A DNA stretch of 64,000 bases, taken from Bradyrhizobium sp. B124. Its GTDB lineage: Bacteria; Pseudomonadota; Alphaproteobacteria; Rhizobiales; Xanthobacteraceae. Below are positions 14,023-46,317 of this stretch, one piece after another. The stretch is from NCBI RefSeq assembly GCF_038967635.1, contig NZ_CP152413.1, positions 8,560,001-8,624,000 on the forward strand, given 5' to 3'. Positions within the stretch are counted from its first letter, which is position 1; every line of letters starts with the position of its first letter. A program made the translations under genes and the position numbers. Under the pieces are notes generated by a model, which made no database searches, had not been told where the DNA came from, and saw only the letters and a list, made by a program, of their open reading frames with translations.

Positions 14023-14084
14023 TCGTATGGCACAAACAAACTGAAGCGCGACAAGCGCTCGGAATTGACGTGGAGGAGGGCCGC

Positions 14085-14468
14085 ATGGCCGACAAGGGCA
14101 ACGACCCTGCCGTGATCTGGCAGGCGATGATTGGCGAGATGGAGAAGGGGTTCAACTCCTTCGGCAACCAGTTGATGAGCTCGCCTGAATTCTCCAAGGT
14201 GATGAATCAGGCCGGCAGCGCCGCGGCGGGCGCGCAGAAGCAGCTCGGCGAGATGATGGAGAAATATCTGCTGGCGATGAACCTGCCGAGCCGCGCCCAG
14301 CTCGTCGGCATGGCCGAGCGCCTGCAGTCGATGGAGACCCAGCTCAACGAGATCAAGACGCTGCTGCAGCAGGTGCACCACAATTCGCTGGCGCCGGACG
14401 ACGGCCACGGCGCAACGCCACGGCCGCCGCGCACCAGGCGCCCGCCATCGGAGGGAGACAGCAAATGA
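14085..14468 (+). CDS. Short PhaE/PhaR-like PHA synthase subunit
   Basis: 127 residues. The segment MMEKYLLAMNLPSRAQLVGM followed by AERLQSMETQLNEIKTLLQQ (about 63-100) resembles the C-terminal tail of class III/IV synthase partner subunits (PhaE, PhaR), which ends in a coiled coil; the rest is short and the tail is Pro/Arg-rich. PhaE is usually over 300 residues and PhaR about 200, so this is a compact form. Start at ATG 14085 after GGAGGAGGG. Its stop overlaps the synthase start (ATGA), so the two are translated together, which supports a subunit role. Confidence 0.65.
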   Translation: MADKGNDPAVIWQAMIGEMEKGFNSFGNQLMSSPEFSKVMNQAGSAAAGAQKQLGEMMEKYLLAMNLPSRAQLVGMAERLQSMETQLNEIKTLLQQVHHNSLAPDDGHGATPRPPRTRRPPSEGDSK

Positions 14469-38933: not shown

Positions 38934-40313
38934 CTATGCCGGTACGAGTGGCGGTGATGCGATTGCGCCATTCAAGGCGATCGTCGGCGCGGATGCCGCG
39001 TCTGAATCAGCCGTCGAGACCGCGTAATTGTCCCATCGGCCCAGATCAAATGTGCTCGCGGTGAGAATTCGGAAGTAAAGCGCACTGTTATTGCGTAATG
39101 CCGCCCAAGCATAGGGTGGCAGGTTATATGTGGCGCCGGTGAAGCGCGACTTGACCTGCGGGTCGTTCCACGAGGCGTAGAAATTGTCGGCGGTTCGTTG
39201 TGCCGGATAGCCAAAACAGTTCGGGTCGCTCGTGATCTCAAATGCATAATACGCGTTGGCGCCGGGCGTTACGTTGAAGGCGGGGCCGTTGCTTTTCGAA
39301 CGATCGTAAGTGTTGGGGCCGGTGACCACAGGACCCTGCTGGGTGGTGGGCGGCTTTGCCGGTTGGCCCGTCGCCGAGGTGCGTTGATCGACCACGATCG
39401 TTAGTGGCTTCGAGTTGGTGAAGACGTCATCGTTGACCCCGACCGTAAAGTAGTTCGGTGTCTGTTCGGGTGGCATCAGCGCCAGGATCGCTTGATGGAA
39501 TTGCGGCAGCGAGCCGGTGAAATTGCCGCTGTTCCAGACCGACAGGAGTTTTTCGGTAAAGAGCCCGTTGCTCTGGCCGTCCTGCGATTCCTGATTGTCT
39601 TGACAGCCGGAGATCAGGATCACCGAAGCGGTAATCTCGCCACGCTTGCGGGTCCATTGCGCGGCTTCGTACATCGGCAGGTCGCGCTCGAAGACATCGA
39701 GTGCGACGGAGGGAGGAATCGACCGCTTTTGTGTCGCGGCAACGTCAGGAGCGGGGCCGCGCGCGCGCGTATTTGCAGCAGGCGCGTAAACCGACTTGAG
39801 GTTCTGTAGTCCGCGGCCCTGCGGGAAGATTGGAATTGCTTTGCGTTTCGACTGCGGCCATCGGATGCCGCTCGGGATGAACAGCTCTCGAATGACGGTG
39901 CCGCTGTGGCAACTGTCCGAATAGACCTCGATGCGCACGTTGGCCGCAAACTGGCCCCACAGATTGTAGAGCTCGTGTCCGAGGACCATGCGGTCGTAAG
40001 CCACCCAGGTGTCGTCAAGACCATTGGGCGAGTCGCCGGTCGTGTCCGGGACCTGGCCGCCGTGACCGGAATAGGAGATGACGCAGGTATCTCCGGACTG
40101 CAAATTGTACGCAGCCTGGCCGATGGCTCCGAGAATGGCGTCGGCGGTCGCCTCACCATCAAGAAGCTTCTGCGTCGTGAAACCCTGCGACTGACAAATC
40201 GTCTCCATCGCATTGGCATCGTTGATGCAGCCGGCCAGCGTGCCCGCCCAGCCGTTGTACTTCGATGCATCGACGCCGTTCAAACCAACATGTAGCGAAA
40301 AGCCCTGACTCAT
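38934..40313 (-). CDS. Caspase-family (peptidase C14) protease
   Basis: 459 residues. The caspase fold opens with FSLHVGLNGVDASKYNGWAG and CINDANAMETICQSQGF; the catalytic dyad is His84 in VISYSGHGGQVPD and Cys135 in VYSDSCHSGTV, followed by the small-subunit-like VILISGCQDNQESQDGQSNG and LFTEKLL. Residues about 310-459 are an extra C-terminal domain (YYAFEITSDPNCFGYPAQRT ... FDLGRWDNYA) of unknown type after a Pro/Thr-rich linker. No signal peptide, so cytosolic. AGGAGGAG precedes the ATG. Third gene of a leftward unit with two large unknown proteins, 12 bp behind the second. Bacterial caspases often execute proteolytic switches or cell death; what this one cuts is unknown. Confidence 0.88.
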   Translation of the reverse strand: MSQGFSLHVGLNGVDASKYNGWAGTLAGCINDANAMETICQSQGFTTQKLLDGEATADAILGAIGQAAYNLQSGDTCVISYSGHGGQVPDTTGDSPNGLDDTWVAYDRMVLGHELYNLWGQFAANVRIEVYSDSCHSGTVIRELFIPSGIRWPQSKRKAIPIFPQGRGLQNLKSVYAPAANTRARGPAPDVAATQKRSIPPSVALDVFERDLPMYEAAQWTRKRGEITASVILISGCQDNQESQDGQSNGLFTEKLLSVWNSGNFTGSLPQFHQAILALMPPEQTPNYFTVGVNDDVFTNSKPLTIVVDQRTSATGQPAKPPTTQQGPVVTGPNTYDRSKSNGPAFNVTPGANAYYAFEITSDPNCFGYPAQRTADNFYASWNDPQVKSRFTGATYNLPPYAWAALRNNSALYFRILTASTFDLGRWDNYAVSTADSDAASAPTIALNGAIASPPLVPA

Positions 40314-40325
40314 AACATTCTCCTC

Positions 40326-43277
40326 CTACAGAAGATCAGCGGTAATTCCGATGACGCTGCCCTTGTTAAGGTCCCAATTGCGCCAGGCGGTCGTGAGCGT
40401 GCCGCTTGCGCGGGTCTCGACCAGCGCGAACTGCAGTGTCTGATGTGCCAGATAGTCGTTGATCGGCAGCGTAAACGAAGCGTCGGCCGTACTGGCTTCA
40501 GCCAGACTGATGGTCTCGATGTGGCTGTTTCCCTCGAGGCGTGCCTGGACGGCAAGTGCAGTCAACTGATGGTTGGAAAAGTTGAGCTGATTGATGAACG
40601 TCACGGTGCTGGTGACGTCTTCGACGAACACGTCAAGCTCCTCGATCGACGTCGCAGCGACTGCGGTGGCGTTGGCAAACGCTCGCGTGGTCGCCGGATC
40701 AACTTTCGCGGTGACGGTCGTCCCTGGCGCGAGCGTGGTGTTTACGGCCACAACCTGGCTTGTCCCGCTTGCCGTCGACGTGACCAGGTCCGTGACGTTC
40801 ATGGCCTGCTGTGTGCGATTGGTGAGTGTCGCGGTGTCGCCTTGCAGTGCCACCGTCACCGGGCCGGATTCGGGAGGTCCAACCACATTGCTGTCGACGA
40901 TCAGCGCGGCGTTGACGCTGCTGCCGTCCGGCAGCGTGAAGGTAACGCCGCCCTGAATGCCGGTGCGATCGAGCACGGCGGTAAGGAGCGCGGCATTGGC
41001 CAGCGGCAGGCTGAGAGTAATGGTGATGGCGTCGAGTACGGTGACTGCTTGCGGCGTGCCCAATTCGGCGGTTAACGCCCACGAATAGCCGACCGTGGCC
41101 GCGACGAACGGATCCGTCGGATAGACGATCGCCGGCGTGCTGCCCGACGGCGTCAGGGCGACAAGCTTCGCGCCGAGCTGCAGCAACGCCCCGGGAGAGA
41201 CGTCCGGAATCAGTGTCGTGGTCAAGGCGTACCGATTGTTCGCCGGATCGACATCGAGCAGGCCATACAGCATGATCATCGGTCGGAAGGCCTTGCTGCC
41301 GCTTCCGTCGCCGAAACGCCCGACCCGGTACGCGGTCGGCGCGACCATGAAGCGTCCTGGCTGTTGCAGCGAGCGAAACACGCGGAACGCCGGATCACGC
41401 AACGTGGTGACTTCATCGAATGCTTTCAGCGCGGTTTCGCCGAGCTTCAGGGAATCCTGGCAGCCGATCGCTGTTGCAACCCCGGCGTCATTGCGCTGGA
41501 GATAGAAGTTCCCGTAGCTGCCGCACGGCAGCGAAGCGTCGGTGGTCTCCTCGCGTACCAACGAACGCGTCACCAGCGTCCGGTGCGGAGTGATTGTTGC
41601 CGGGATAAGATGCGGCTGAATGTCCGCAGGCGGTATTGGCGTGACCGTGAGGTGCGAGACGGCCGGTGTCGCCGGTGCCCGTCCGGCAATCGAAGGGCTC
41701 TCGCGGTCGAACTGCACCGAACCAGACGCACTGACGATCTTCAGGTCCTGCCTGACCAGCGTTGGTCCGCGCACCTGCGCCGGCAGATCGTTGACGGTGG
41801 CCACCTTGGCAATCTGGTGGACGAGGCCGCCTCCGATCACGTGGAACGTCTGGGGGCTGTAAAAGATGTACTGGTAGGAGGTGAAAGCGTAGGAGACGAC
41901 GACGCGCGGCGGCTCACCGGTTCCGGGAAATGCCAGTGACGCATAGGTCAGCCGCACCCAGTCGTCGAGCAACGCAACGGTGATCGTGATCTGGTCGCCG
42001 GTCTGGGACACCGTCCCGGGAAATCGCTGGGATTGAATCTCGCTGGTGCCCGCACGGCGATACGGAATCTGCAGCGCGCATGACAGATTTTGCAACGGAA
42101 CCGCTTGCAGCTTGCGATCCGGATTGGCGGCGGCGGCGGCCGTCTCTGGTGTCATCGCGGCCTTGACGGTGAGCCGCACGGTTGCTGTCAATCCGGTTCT
42201 TGCGGTGCCGTCCGAGCCAAGCACCGAGCCGGTTTTTGCCAGCACAAAGGAGAACGCCGCGTTCGCGGCATTGTCGCTGGCCGCCGGCTTCACCAATGTG
42301 AAGGTCGGTGCATACCAGCCGGCCTTCGGGTCGAGCGCATCGGGCCACCAATGCGCGGCGACATCGGACACCACCGGGTAGTTCTGGGTGGGAGACTGGG
42401 TATCATCGAGGTGCAGCGGCAGCACGTACATATCGTTGCCGATGAACGTATGTGCGTGCGCATTGAGAGCGATGCCCTGGCTCGTGGCGCCGCCCGAGAT
42501 CAGCGCGGCCGCCGAAGGCTGCACGATGTGGCTTGCTGTCATCGCGAACGGCAGGGAGGTGAGCCGGTTGTTCATTGCAACAAGCGGCACCGCCGCCGGC
42601 GCCGCCCGCAATGCCGTTTCACCGCCCGACAGGTTCTTCCGCAACGGCGGCACACGGTTCGCGGTGCCGTCGGCATTCACGACCAGCAGAGACAAATAAA
42701 GGTTGCGATCCAGGCCATCGAGAATCCCGCCAAGCACGAGGTCGAGCGACAAATCGTCAATTGGTGGACCGTCGACGATCTCGGTCACAAGTCGAAGCCG
42801 CGATGCCCGTCGGTCGAACGCGTAGAGCACGTCGAGCGCGGCTTCCGGCGGCAGGGACGTGGCGATGGTGCCCTCGACCCGCGTTCCGAACAGGTCGGTG
42901 CCGGCATAGAATGCGCGACTGTCACGCAGCGAGCACCGGCCGGCACGGACGAACAGCTTCCGGCATGGTGCGTCCAGCCGCGAGGCGAGGGCCGCGATGT
43001 CCTGTTCGGGGGTCTCGAACGCAATCACCAGCGACAGCGAACCGCATGTCACCAGCGGTGCGATGGAGGCGTCGTCGAGCGTCGGCATGCGCGACAGCAC
43101 CAGTGTCAACGCCACCCGCGGGCGGCCGGCGATGTCGCGCGCCACCCGCGGCTTGCCCGAGAGATGGTCGTAACCATCTCTCGTACGCCGCACCTGGACC
43201 GATGCTGGACCCGGCAGATCAAGCCTGCTCCAGCCGGATGTCGTGCTCGGCGCGATGTGTGGTCCAAGGGCAGACAT
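40326..43277 (-). CDS. Large protein of unknown family, second gene of the caspase unit
   Basis: 983 residues; not recognised. No signal peptide or membrane helix, so probably cytosolic. The N-terminal 250 residues are mixed alpha/beta (LALTLVLSRMPTLDDAS-like strand patterns, EIVDGPPIDDLSLDLVLGGI). From about 260 the chain is rich in Thr, Val and Ala with alternating hydrophobic residues, suggesting several beta-sandwich modules. Residues 881-983 appear related to residues 552-656 of the 762-aa protein upstream. Six-base GGAG-type ribosome site six bases before the ATG. It starts 15 bp after the upstream gene and ends 12 bp before the caspase gene, so the three are one operon. A structural or sensor protein, or the protease substrate, is possible; nothing proves it. 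Confidence 0.8.
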   Translation of the reverse strand: MSALGPHIAPSTTSGWSRLDLPGPASVQVRRTRDGYDHLSGKPRVARDIAGRPRVALTLVLSRMPTLDDASIAPLVTCGSLSLVIAFETPEQDIAALASRLDAPCRKLFVRAGRCSLRDSRAFYAGTDLFGTRVEGTIATSLPPEAALDVLYAFDRRASRLRLVTEIVDGPPIDDLSLDLVLGGILDGLDRNLYLSLLVVNADGTANRVPPLRKNLSGGETALRAAPAAVPLVAMNNRLTSLPFAMTASHIVQPSAAALISGGATSQGIALNAHAHTFIGNDMYVLPLHLDDTQSPTQNYPVVSDVAAHWWPDALDPKAGWYAPTFTLVKPAASDNAANAAFSFVLAKTGSVLGSDGTARTGLTATVRLTVKAAMTPETAAAAANPDRKLQAVPLQNLSCALQIPYRRAGTSEIQSQRFPGTVSQTGDQITITVALLDDWVRLTYASLAFPGTGEPPRVVVSYAFTSYQYIFYSPQTFHVIGGGLVHQIAKVATVNDLPAQVRGPTLVRQDLKIVSASGSVQFDRESPSIAGRAPATPAVSHLTVTPIPPADIQPHLIPATITPHRTLVTRSLVREETTDASLPCGSYGNFYLQRNDAGVATAIGCQDSLKLGETALKAFDEVTTLRDPAFRVFRSLQQPGRFMVAPTAYRVGRFGDGSGSKAFRPMIMLYGLLDVDPANNRYALTTTLIPDVSPGALLQLGAKLVALTPSGSTPAIVYPTDPFVAATVGYSWALTAELGTPQAVTVLDAITITLSLPLANAALLTAVLDRTGIQGGVTFTLPDGSSVNAALIVDSNVVGPPESGPVTVALQGDTATLTNRTQQAMNVTDLVTSTASGTSQVVAVNTTLAPGTTVTAKVDPATTRAFANATAVAATSIEELDVFVEDVTSTVTFINQLNFSNHQLTALAVQARLEGNSHIETISLAEASTADASFTLPINDYLAHQTLQFALVETRASGTLTTAWRNWDLNKGSVIGITADLL

Positions 43278-43292
43278 GGCTGCTCCGCCCGA

Positions 43293-45581
43293 CTAGGCTG
43301 GTTCGAAGCTCGAAAACACAACCTCGTCCTTTGGAGCCGGTGCACCCTTCGATGCGCCGCCATCTCCGGGGGACGCCGCCCAGCCGCCGACTTCGCCATA
43401 GCCGCCGGAACCGGGCGCGCCCTTGCCGGTCGGCGGAGGCGCCGTTGGTTTCAACGTACTGGGCGGAGGTACGACGTGACCGGTCGAGGGCGGCGGCGTT
43501 GCCGGCGCACCTTGTCCAGTTGTCGTTGAGGCGATCGCAGACAACGGGACATCCTTCTTCGTGACGTTGGGATCATCCGGCGTCGGTACCGTCACCATCA
43601 GCCCGCCGCTGCCGCCCGTCGAGATCGGAGTGGTCGTCGACCATTCCTGTCCGTGGGTGAACAGCGTGCCTTTGACCACGACGCGAACCGAATATTGAAA
43701 CTTCGGCACGAAATTCTTCTGCCCGGTGTAAACCAGCCAGTAGCGCGGCGTGTTTTGATCCGCGAACTTGAAGGTGAACTTGACCGGATCCCGGTCATTG
43801 CCGTCGTCGCGCTTGCCCAGCGCCTGCATCGTCACCTCGACGTATTGGGTGTCGTCGGTCAGATTGGCGCCAAGCAGGATCGGCCCGACCGAGAGCGTGC
43901 CGGCTTCCTCGACGCGGACTTCAACCGCGATTGTGTTGTCGGGCGTTCCGAGCGGGCTTGGGTCGAGATCGACGATGTCCTTCTCGACCTGCACGCGTGC
44001 ATATGGATTCTCGAATTCGCTCGGCGGCTCGGTAAAGTGAATCTGCCGCTTCAGGAACATCTTGTCCGGCTCCCAGCCCGCCGGCGGATGGGCAACGTCG
44101 CTCTTCTGCTTCATGAACGTCGCGGTATCGAAATGGGCGTCCGGTCCATCGGACGGACTGAATACGTGTCCATCCCATTGCAGGGCACCGTCGGCGTTGG
44201 GATAGCCAACCTGACAGGACAGGAATGCCACGGGTTCACCGACCCACTTCTGTGTCGGATCCGGCCAGTTCACCACCGGCTTGAAGACGCGCGCGACCTT
44301 GCGGTCCCAGTCGCCGATATCGACCGTAAGGAAGTAGACCTTGTCCTTGGCGGGATTGGCCCGGATTTCATCCGCCACGCCGTCGAGCGTGCCGCCGACC
44401 TGATAGTTCTGCAGGTAGGCGATTTCCTTGGTCTCGTGATACTCCAGATCGAGGTTGGTGCGCTGCTCGCGCAGTTTGAACGCGGCGCCGCCACCGAAGC
44501 CGAGGAAGCCGCCACTGGCCTGTGCCGGTTGCTCGTTGAATGGTGCCGGGTCGAAGATCACCTGCTTCGCCAGGTCCATGAACTTCTGGAAGATCAAGTC
44601 GCTCCGCTTGTCCATATATTCTTGCAGCTTGTCTGCCCCAGGCAGCGACTGGTCGACGAATGTATGGACCTCGATGTCGCCGGATTCGCGGAGGCTGTCG
44701 TATTGGGCTTGAATGTCGGCACTCCAGAACAGACCGCCGGCGTGTCCGGCACCTGAGAAGTGATCCTGGATTCTCGACCAATGACCGGTGATATCGATCG
44801 TCATCAGGGGACTGACCACCCGGACCATCATGTTCTGCGTCACGTTCATCACGCCGGTGCCGAGATTATGAAAGCCGTTATAGGCAACCGCCGCCGGGAT
44901 GCTGCCGAGCAGCGCGCTGTAAGCCTTCTCCGCGCCTGGATCGATGGTGCCGGGGCCTTGCCCTGACAGCTTCACGAACATCGGGTCGATGTTGGTGCCG
45001 CGATAGCTCTGCGGCACCGTGCGGGGCATGACTCCCGCCGGCAGATAGGAGCGGTTGAGCCCGATCGTCGGTGGCGCTCCTGCGATTGGGCTCTTGCTCG
45101 ACATCACGGCCGGAATGCCACGGCTGTCGCCCGGCAGGGTGTTGGAGAGCACGCACTGATTGCTGACGATGGGAATGAAAGTGAACCAGGGCTTCTGATT
45201 CGAGGTGTATCGCCACAGCGGATTGTCATGGCTGCGAACCTGATCGATCAGCGCCGCATGGGCATCGGCCAGCACGTTGTCCGGCGGCGCCGCAGTCGTC
45301 GCGAAATTGATCAGCCCGCCTGCCACTTCGTTGTCGGAACTGGTTTCGCCGACAGTGGTGCCGCTCGATCGCACGCCGGCGAAGTGGATCATGCTGAACT
45401 TGTAGTCGCCGTTGGGCTTCCGCGCGAGATTGACCTGCTCGGGCAGCCAGTAATACACCGGCGCTTGCCCGGCTGCCTGCAATTGCTGGTTGTGCGCATC
45501 GACCCAGTAGCTGATACGCCACCCAGATTTCGTCACGACCTGATTGCCGACTGCGAAAAGCGGTCCAACTGGCGTCACCAT
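43293..45581 (-). CDS. Large protein of unknown family, first gene of the caspase unit
   Basis: 762 residues; not recognised. No signal peptide. Visible parts: N-terminal region with WRISYWVDAHNQQLQ and LPEQVNLARKPNGDYKFSMI; a helical middle (about 290-345, EYMDKRSDLIFQKFMDLAKQ); a Gly-rich turn GGFLGFGGGAAFKLREQ (about 357-373); beta-rich modules to about 656; and a Pro/Gly/Thr-rich flexible tail (660-750, PPPST repeats twice) ending in DEVVFSSFEPA. GGAG lies seven bases before the ATG. The long flexible tail would suit an interaction or cleavage region. No homologous function can be named. Confidence 0.8.
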   Translation of the reverse strand: MVTPVGPLFAVGNQVVTKSGWRISYWVDAHNQQLQAAGQAPVYYWLPEQVNLARKPNGDYKFSMIHFAGVRSSGTTVGETSSDNEVAGGLINFATTAAPPDNVLADAHAALIDQVRSHDNPLWRYTSNQKPWFTFIPIVSNQCVLSNTLPGDSRGIPAVMSSKSPIAGAPPTIGLNRSYLPAGVMPRTVPQSYRGTNIDPMFVKLSGQGPGTIDPGAEKAYSALLGSIPAAVAYNGFHNLGTGVMNVTQNMMVRVVSPLMTIDITGHWSRIQDHFSGAGHAGGLFWSADIQAQYDSLRESGDIEVHTFVDQSLPGADKLQEYMDKRSDLIFQKFMDLAKQVIFDPAPFNEQPAQASGGFLGFGGGAAFKLREQRTNLDLEYHETKEIAYLQNYQVGGTLDGVADEIRANPAKDKVYFLTVDIGDWDRKVARVFKPVVNWPDPTQKWVGEPVAFLSCQVGYPNADGALQWDGHVFSPSDGPDAHFDTATFMKQKSDVAHPPAGWEPDKMFLKRQIHFTEPPSEFENPYARVQVEKDIVDLDPSPLGTPDNTIAVEVRVEEAGTLSVGPILLGANLTDDTQYVEVTMQALGKRDDGNDRDPVKFTFKFADQNTPRYWLVYTGQKNFVPKFQYSVRVVVKGTLFTHGQEWSTTTPISTGGSGGLMVTVPTPDDPNVTKKDVPLSAIASTTTGQGAPATPPPSTGHVVPPPSTLKPTAPPPTGKGAPGSGGYGEVGGWAASPGDGGASKGAPAPKDEVVFSSFEPA

Positions 45582-46317
45582 AATGATACTCCGCTTGGGT
45601 TGCGGCGATCGACGGCGCTCAGAGAATTTGTGAAGCCGCCTCGCCGTATGAAAGTTGCGCGGGATCTCTCCAGATGGAGGGATACCGAAAAATCGAGTTC
45701 AGCCATTGGTGGCTGCTCATCCGTCAATTCGCGGTCACGCGATACTTCCATTCGAAGGCGCGGGTCGCACGATGAGCAAGTTTGGGAAGTTCCCAGGATT
45801 GATAATTGCGGTCGCAGTTTGCGCCGGCATCAAGATGCATTGGAAAAACTAGAAATATTGATCGAACCGTTTGTCTTGCATGCCTTCCTCCTTGCCCAAT
45901 ACTGGCTTCGGAACGGATGCGACCTGTGCAGTGGTATTCTCGATCCTTGCAACCAGCATGCTAGACCCGTTGCGGTCGTTCGTTAGTGAGATCGTTCACA
46001 GGCTCAGAGGTGATTTGCGGGAGTGGTAAACATTTTGCGGCCCTATTCGGTTTACTTCGCTAAGTATGCAGCCAACAGTTGAGCTTCATCTTGCGCAAAC
46101 CGAACTCGGTTCGGCTTCTTGCCGCCGCAGGCGCGGCAAGAAGAAGTGAAGCGCCCGGGCGAACGAGGCAAGCTTCGCGGATATGGCCGGAGGATCCGGC
46201 AGGTCGCCGCCACCGGCATTGCGGATATCGCACCCCCATTCGAAGGGGTGACGTAAGCCTTTGATTTCGCTATCCTGTCCTCTCGATGGGCATCACACTC
46301 GAGCAATCATTGCCGCA
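45582..46317. other. 736-bp gap upstream of the caspase unit and TetR gene
   Basis: No convincing gene. It must hold the leftward promoter of the caspase unit and the rightward promoter of the TetR gene, but no clear -35/-10 pair was found for the former. Hairpins: CTTCTTGCCGC/GCGGCAAGAAG (46115-46143) and CACCCC/GGGGTG (46231-46250), neither with a T tract. A 26-codon frame at 45772 (MSKFGKFPGLIIAVAVCAGI, then KMHWKN) would be a tiny membrane peptide but lacks a ribosome site. Confidence 0.5.

Follow-up and report, generated by a model that had tools for sequence, protein, structure and literature searches.

What does a bacterial caspase act on when it is encoded directly behind two large proteins of no recognised family? 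Bacterial caspases are common and, to our knowledge, few have known substrates. The question is raised by a three-gene cassette in Bradyrhizobium sp. B124 (contig NZ_CP152413.1), located within the 64,000-bp stretch that was analysed (positions 8,560,001-8,624,000 of a 9.17-Mb single-contig genome; hereafter the window, whose numbering is used below). All three genes lie on the minus strand in the order A1, A2 and caspase, with intergenic gaps of 15 and 12 bp in the list of open reading frames (ORFs). Each starts with ATG and is preceded by a purine-rich ribosome site (GCGGAG for A1, GCGGAG for A2 and AGGAGGAG for the caspase). An initial annotation made from the sequence alone had described three leftward genes with this spacing and a ribosome site each, and every checked detail of that description was correct.

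43293..45581, minus strand: A1, first gene of the cassette, 762 aa (ORF list; homologue search; no family above chance level)
40326..43277, minus strand: A2, 983 aa, a string of beta-sandwich-like domains (ORF list; 22 homologues; AlphaFold2; fold searches)
38934..40313, minus strand: caspase (Peptidase_C14) with C-terminal accessory domain, 459 aa (ORF list; Pfam; match to PDB 3bij)
45582..45999, minus strand: upstream region travelling with the cassette (the Bradyrhizobium altum alignment, locus L002, reaches 45999)

The trio across loci

The neighbourhood of A1 was surveyed at 24 places, comprising 22 from a genome scan, one from a plasmid search and the window itself. Five were set aside (L022, where only an N-terminal fragment is present; L023, which matches over 69 bp and lacks an A1 ORF; L011, L012 and L015, which run off their contigs, L012 and L015 after beginning an A2). 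Of the 19 usable loci, 18 have A2 after A1 and 16 of these continue with a caspase, which makes the full trio the rule rather than, as the initial annotation had allowed for, a rare combination. The third gene of L007 (Amycolatopsis) encodes a DUF6345 protein (1.9e-15), and L020 (Tessaracoccus lapidicaptus) lacks an ORF that matches the window caspase and has a TPR-CHAT gene directly upstream. A1 and A2 are thus accompanied by a caspase or caspase-like protease in 18 of the 19 usable loci, in agreement with the tight coupling that had been claimed. The further statement that known caspase partners are not visible held for the three window genes and failed in relatives, where TPR-CHAT genes lie upstream at three loci (L020, and L017 and L018, directly upstream of A1 and besides a caspase of their own) and an nSTAND1 NTPase gene (nSTAND1-WD40) lies upstream at one (L007).

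The DUF6345 protein (L007:15052-16557, Amycolatopsis xylanica) stands in the caspase position and carries SGHG and FSTC motifs, which by familiar motif logic we take to be caspase-like. DUF6345 looks like a caspase-like peptidase family, and no description of it was found in the open-licence PubMed Central literature.

Several loci are close relatives (four Bradyrhizobium including the window, three sphingomonads, two Flavihumibacter and two Tessaracoccus), so that about twelve independent lineages are represented, which we take from their genus names to span at least five phyla. One locus (L004), labelled as an Actinomycetota metagenome-assembled genome, is unusually near Bradyrhizobium (67% in A1) and could be misbinned. 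Long homologues of all three proteins in other phyla, in the same gene order, are far beyond chance. Over 12 loci the distances of A1, A2 and caspase correlate (0.82, 0.83 and 0.91), and 0 of 5000 permutations reach these values. Functional coupling of the trio is strongly supported. That the genes are merely co-transcribed and have unrelated functions is highly improbable, being contradicted by this survey; shared order across phyla, block co-transfer and the exact co-occurrence of A1 and A2 in sampled genomes all count against it.

Because the large proteins stay constant and the changing partner stays a caspase-like protease, we tentatively favour a protease that acts on A1-A2; a third component that is again caspase-like where it differs is as expected if proteolysis does so (not every neighbour was annotated). 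The same pattern could fit the main rival, in which A1 and A2 are sensor and scaffold and hold the caspase inactive until an invader or stress frees it as an effector cutting many cell proteins. Proteases that vary while A1-A2 stay would resemble effectors in modular systems, the beta-sandwich strings of A2 suit binding, and the nSTAND1-WD40 gene (one locus) and TPR-CHAT genes (three loci) upstream in relatives are also in its favour. An exchangeable effector, however, predicts non-protease effectors, and no such third component was recognised in the 18 loci, within the neighbours annotated. Invader sensors usually diversify, whereas the columns of the A1 alignment have a mean identity of 37% over 125 sequences, a fair degree of conservation. 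We consider the sensor or scaffold role somewhat unlikely.

Distribution and horizontal movement

A1 was present in 2 of 146 sampled Bradyrhizobium genomes, with A2 in the same 2; among 299 genomes sampled across the phylum, 2 had A1, one of them as a fragment. The caspase query matched 29 of the 146 Bradyrhizobium genomes. A1-A2 go with a protease, which itself occurs without them, so that by these counts the dependence on a protease is stronger for A1-A2 than the other way round.

The closest relatives of the cassette are from Bradyrhizobium. The B. altum locus aligns with the window over 38941-45999 only (92.3% identity), and the rest of its 22 kb gave nothing at E ≤ 1e-10. GC content at third codon positions (GC3) is 0.77, 0.77 and 0.72 in the trio versus 0.84-0.90 in four neighbour genes. 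Rarity within Bradyrhizobium, lower GC3 and the unrelated B. altum surroundings together show that the cassette moves horizontally as a block.

A close caspase core (46-51% identical over the first part) is found in four Bradyrhizobium genomes besides the two cassette genomes. The two relatives inspected adjoin another caspase protein in genomes lacking A1 and A2 (L032:7037-9953 and L033:7182-9518), as tandem genes for a long caspase and a short one resembling Geobacter GSU0716. The short caspase of L033 matches in several pieces, and a Pfam match was run for the second caspase of one of the two loci. Plasmid records matching the caspase query numbered 28, and a single one matched over 80% of the query length. 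A plasmid of Rhodococcus sp. DMU1 (L034:5366-12325) carries a caspase relative near a 757-aa protein with no Pfam family and a hydrophobic C-terminus, and also near radical-SAM and HEXXH peptide-modification genes.

Domains of the three proteins

The following domains and sites were located within the cassette.

39444..40268, minus strand: caspase catalytic domain, residues 16-290, with H84 and C135 (PF00656; 3bij, 2.5e-74; dyad in 14 of 14)
38964..39347, minus strand: caspase C-terminal accessory domain, residues 323-450 (profile made from tails of this kind)
45132..45581, minus strand: A1 residues 1-150, N-terminal domain, probably shared with A2 (hhalign; AlphaFold2 block predicted local distance difference test, pLDDT, mostly >80 except 71-90 and the last block)
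44982..45131, minus strand: A1 residues 151-200, length-variable linker rich in Pro, Ala and Gly, with a PR[TS]VP motif (alignment; block pLDDT 43-60)
43554..44306, minus strand: A1 residues 426-676, two beta-sandwich domains
43296..43529, minus strand: A1 residues 685-762, disordered tail rich in Pro; 111 of the 125 tails have a G[WY] motif (AlphaFold2; alignment)
42960..43244, minus strand: A2 residues 12-106, N-terminal domain probably shared with A1 (hhalign)
41460..41525, minus strand: A2 residues 585-606, invariant cysteine pair (alignment)

The third protein had been called a caspase-fold protease with an intact His84/Cys135 pair and an extra C-terminal domain, and both points were borne out. 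Pfam PF00656 matches the catalytic domain at 1.7e-21 (77.4 bits against a cut-off of 21.4), a C14 match was returned for 14 of 14 caspases scanned, and H84 and C135 are invariant across an alignment of 13 of the 16 intact-trio caspases (L003, L005 and L010 left out) plus the decayed copy L028. GSU0716 (PDB 3bij) is the closest solved sequence, matching caspase residues 1-145 and 181-307, and belongs with the short Bradyrhizobium caspases to the same C14 subfamily; its solved chain of 285 aa ends before the accessory domain, unlike the window caspase. We take the window caspase to be a true Peptidase_C14 with an intact catalytic pair; as an orthocaspase it would be expected to cleave after Arg/Lys.

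The accessory-domain profile was built from 11 tails, which it matches by construction, and found the domain in 13 of the 16 intact-trio caspases (missing from L017-L019; doubled in L008, L009, L010 and L016). Outside caspases, it matched one subtilase only, with nothing else at E ≤ 1 in a 455-ORF set or among the aligned A1 and A2 sequences. Pfam found PG_binding_1 in 6 of the 14 caspases scanned; the carriers, read from the alignment (the Pfam count is unnamed), have it in place of the tail domain (L017-L019) or added to it (L013, L014 and L026), and those of L017 and L026 also have NCBIfam peptidoglycan-binding matches below cut-off. The tail is a distinct, cassette-specific domain, elsewhere replaced or joined by peptidoglycan-binding domains.

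The subtilase is encoded in genome G441 (L028:8110-14133) next to a cassette remnant with a whole caspase and fragmentary A1 and A2. The A1 remnant matches profile positions 1-143 only, A2 is in two pieces and the caspase matches over its length. By reading of the ORFs, the subtilase gene (Pfam S8, 7.8e-33) starts 5 bp after the caspase; its product has no signal-like N-terminus and carries one strong (7.6e-39) and two weak partial (0.0034 and 0.0083) copies of the accessory domain. A domain common to two proteases of one operon suggests docking rather than a role in secretion.

On a plasmid of Palleronia sp. THAF1 (L037:889-2411), the gene immediately after a related caspase encodes PG_binding_1 and has a CHAP match that stays under the curated cut-off, a second link of this caspase subfamily to peptidoglycan. 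Together with the PG_binding_1 carriers, this gene leans towards the envelope. An envelope or post-lysis function, in which a cytosolic store is released on membrane failure with the caspase bound to peptidoglycan, would draw on both, on the A2 cysteine pair if it is a disulfide, and on the parts of a 2012 survey (PMC3501461) reporting 11 metacaspases with peptidoglycan-binding domains and a metacaspase operon of Geobacter sulfurreducens that includes an amidase. We judge it quite unlikely: by hydropathy A1, A2 and the caspase have no export signal, and the window caspase has no PG_binding match in Pfam.

No match above chance level was obtained for A1 or A2 in Pfam, NCBIfam, PADLOC or the sequences of solved structures, and their description as proteins of no recognised family stands. 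For A1, 254 of the 7996 candidates scored are homologues at E ≤ 1e-3, and 120 of them were listed. The absence of a signal peptide from all three proteins was likewise upheld, as judged by hydropathy only, and A1 and A2 have no Cys in the first 45 residues. Structure prediction, suggested initially as a check, gave a domain layout for both large proteins and no fold match of weight; none stood out in structure-based searches with either. The AlphaFold2 model of A1 (125 sequences; mean pLDDT 78.2; predicted template modelling score, pTM, 0.58) has a confident N-terminal domain except for 71-90, a disordered linker, a middling region at 200-425, two confident beta-sandwiches and a disordered tail. 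That of A2 (39 sequences; pLDDT 79.2; pTM 0.66) is made of beta-sandwich-like units in a string. The A1 linker, in whose motif R187 is present in 103 of 125 sequences, is a candidate cleavage region. Among ungapped sequences of the 39 aligned, A2 cysteines C585 (38 of 38) and C606 (36 of 36) are invariant and could form a disulfide, a metal half-site or a reactive thiol. A2 hydropathy exceeds 1.6 somewhere in 24 of 39 sequences (1.85 at residue 751 in the window protein), and by this measure a buried or membrane segment is possible.

The N-termini of A1 (1-150) and A2 (1-130) were matched by hhalign with a probability of 82.6 and E 9.6e-6, collinear over A1 17-116 and A2 12-106. Of the 30 segment pairs compared, two paired the N-termini and the other 28 gave E 0.025 or worse; a reversed control in the same comparison gave E 0.44. 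A1 and A2 are probably homologous over a ~100-aa N-terminal domain.

A1 and A2, which probably have a domain in common and are accompanied by a protease, might form a two-component, protease-activated pore, like the pairs related to cholesterol-dependent cytolysins (CDCs) or like gasdermins. The central region of A1 is modelled with long strands, helices and a Gly-rich loop, and 11 of the 50 Foldseek matches listed are CDC chains, four of which have vague titles and are presumably cytolysins. These matches have E 0.07-1.3 and template modelling scores (query) of 0.05-0.08, however, and the MACPF/CDC fold test returned weak Foldseek/VIA matches only. No MACPF/cytolysin Pfam match was found in 22 members at E ≤ 10 (filters drop most weak matches), and A1 has no transmembrane-like segment by hydropathy (0 of 125 sequences above 1.6; window A1 maximum 0.95). 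A pore is very unlikely.

Proposed function and known systems

Tentatively, and at somewhat less than an even chance, we propose that the trio is a horizontally mobile, protease-gated two-protein module. A1 and A2, on their common N-terminal domain, would assemble with each other and with the co-encoded caspase, which a trigger would release. The caspase would then cut A1 and/or A2, most likely in the unstructured linker that follows the N-terminal domain of A1. The assembly thus freed would execute the output, which would probably harm the cell that makes it, by regulated death or arrested growth in a conflict setting. The accessory or peptidoglycan-binding domain of the caspase would fix location or docking. 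An unlikely extension of this proposal is a new class of cross-phylum executioner, in which two giant proteins with a common N-terminal domain could be triggered by caspase, DUF6345 or TPR-CHAT proteases, the protease could be anchored to peptidoglycan, and the whole would serve cell death or the breaching of the wall, with no sequence relationship to gasdermins, Canu or Craspase.

Several results weigh against the gated module. In L021 (Streptoalloteichus), two A1 genes stand without an A2 or a recognised protease, and the correlation of distances may partly reflect shared descent. With whole profiles the A1/A2 N-terminal match is weak (probability 11.2, E 0.0027), and with smaller alignments it falls to a probability of 0.7 and E 0.084. 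The A1 linker contains basic residues in 122 of 125 sequences, at no higher frequency than its composition predicts, and so they prove no cleavage site. Ten neighbours scanned in the B. altum locus were metabolic, regulatory or membrane genes or had no match, with no defence genes among them, and the searches gave no viral or phage match or link.

The tandem A1-like genes of Streptoalloteichus tenebrarius (L021:8253-13807) are preceded by genes for two similar ~270-aa proteins with common NNCYNYA and DFHWYG motifs and no Pfam match; that these are cysteine peptidases is a guess.

A defence role, raised by the initial annotation, is possible. PADLOC (2023 library) gave no whole-system match in the cassette, with the generic caspase model only (7e-9) and nothing for A1 or A2 at E ≤ 1. 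Nine proteins from the loci were also scanned, and four had weak matches: RT-Protease_XI (1.1e-8) for a trypsin-like protein encoded ~8 kb from the Deinococcus A1, BovA (2.4e-4) for the TPR-CHAT protein of L017, mad8 (0.0067) for the nSTAND1 protein of L007, and a match at 4.1e-5 for the subtilase of G441. These matches and the nSTAND1 or CHAT neighbours in four relatives count weakly for defence.

Bacterial gasdermin pore-formers are small, and a gasdermin system was rejected for partners of 762 and 983 aa with no family match. Craspase (type III-E CRISPR; PMC9729208), which reportedly joins TPR-CHAT with a CRISPR effector, has TPR-CHAT in common with the three loci where such a gene stands upstream of A1; neither A1, A2 nor the caspase matched CRISPR proteins in Pfam, NCBIfam or PADLOC, and an array was not searched for. 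The closest system in logic is Canu (CanABC), which the part of PMC12799240 that outlines it presents as a three-gene caspase-nuclease anti-phage system whose caspase activates a pro-nuclease. Both have a three-gene caspase operon, a caspase with an extra C-terminal domain and a caspase-gated partner (here proposed). The Canu substrate is a pro-nuclease, in that outline, whereas A2 is modelled as beta-sandwich-like throughout and the cassette has no nuclease match in Pfam, NCBIfam or PADLOC (the PADLOC copy predates Canu; A1 200-425 has no assigned fold).

The EACC1-caspase system, as sketched in sections of Kaur et al. 2020 (PMC7159879) and PMC8195603, similarly places a caspase with exchangeable C-terminal domains beside a constant partner. 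EACC1 is described there as a small protein with a single transmembrane segment, in contrast to the 983 aa encoded 5' of the window caspase. The EACC1-associated caspase family was rejected (NF047832, 18.6 bits against a cut-off of 140; three relatives 24-31 bits). CDC-like toxins, in the portion of PMC11169675 that introduces them, are likewise two adjacent related proteins that need proteolysis; those studied have SpII signal peptides and the CDC fold, whereas the cassette has no export signal and no fold match of weight.

No description of the trio was found among the open-licence PubMed Central papers listed, as judged by title and abstract start. The probable shared N-terminal domain of A1 and A2, the invariant A2 cysteines and the cassette-specific caspase tail are new here. 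A conserved, mobile cassette that ties a caspase to two specific large proteins provides an enzyme-partner set in which a natural substrate of a bacterial caspase could be sought. Should A1 and A2 be gated executioners, they would represent another mode of action besides the gasdermin pore and the caspase-activated nuclease, and the caspase, CHAT and DUF6345 proteases of bacteria would seem to be interchangeable in one pathway.

Elsewhere in the window, ARAGORN called a 92-nt tRNA-Ile (14079-14170) inside a predicted protein gene (14070-14468), which is probably a false call.

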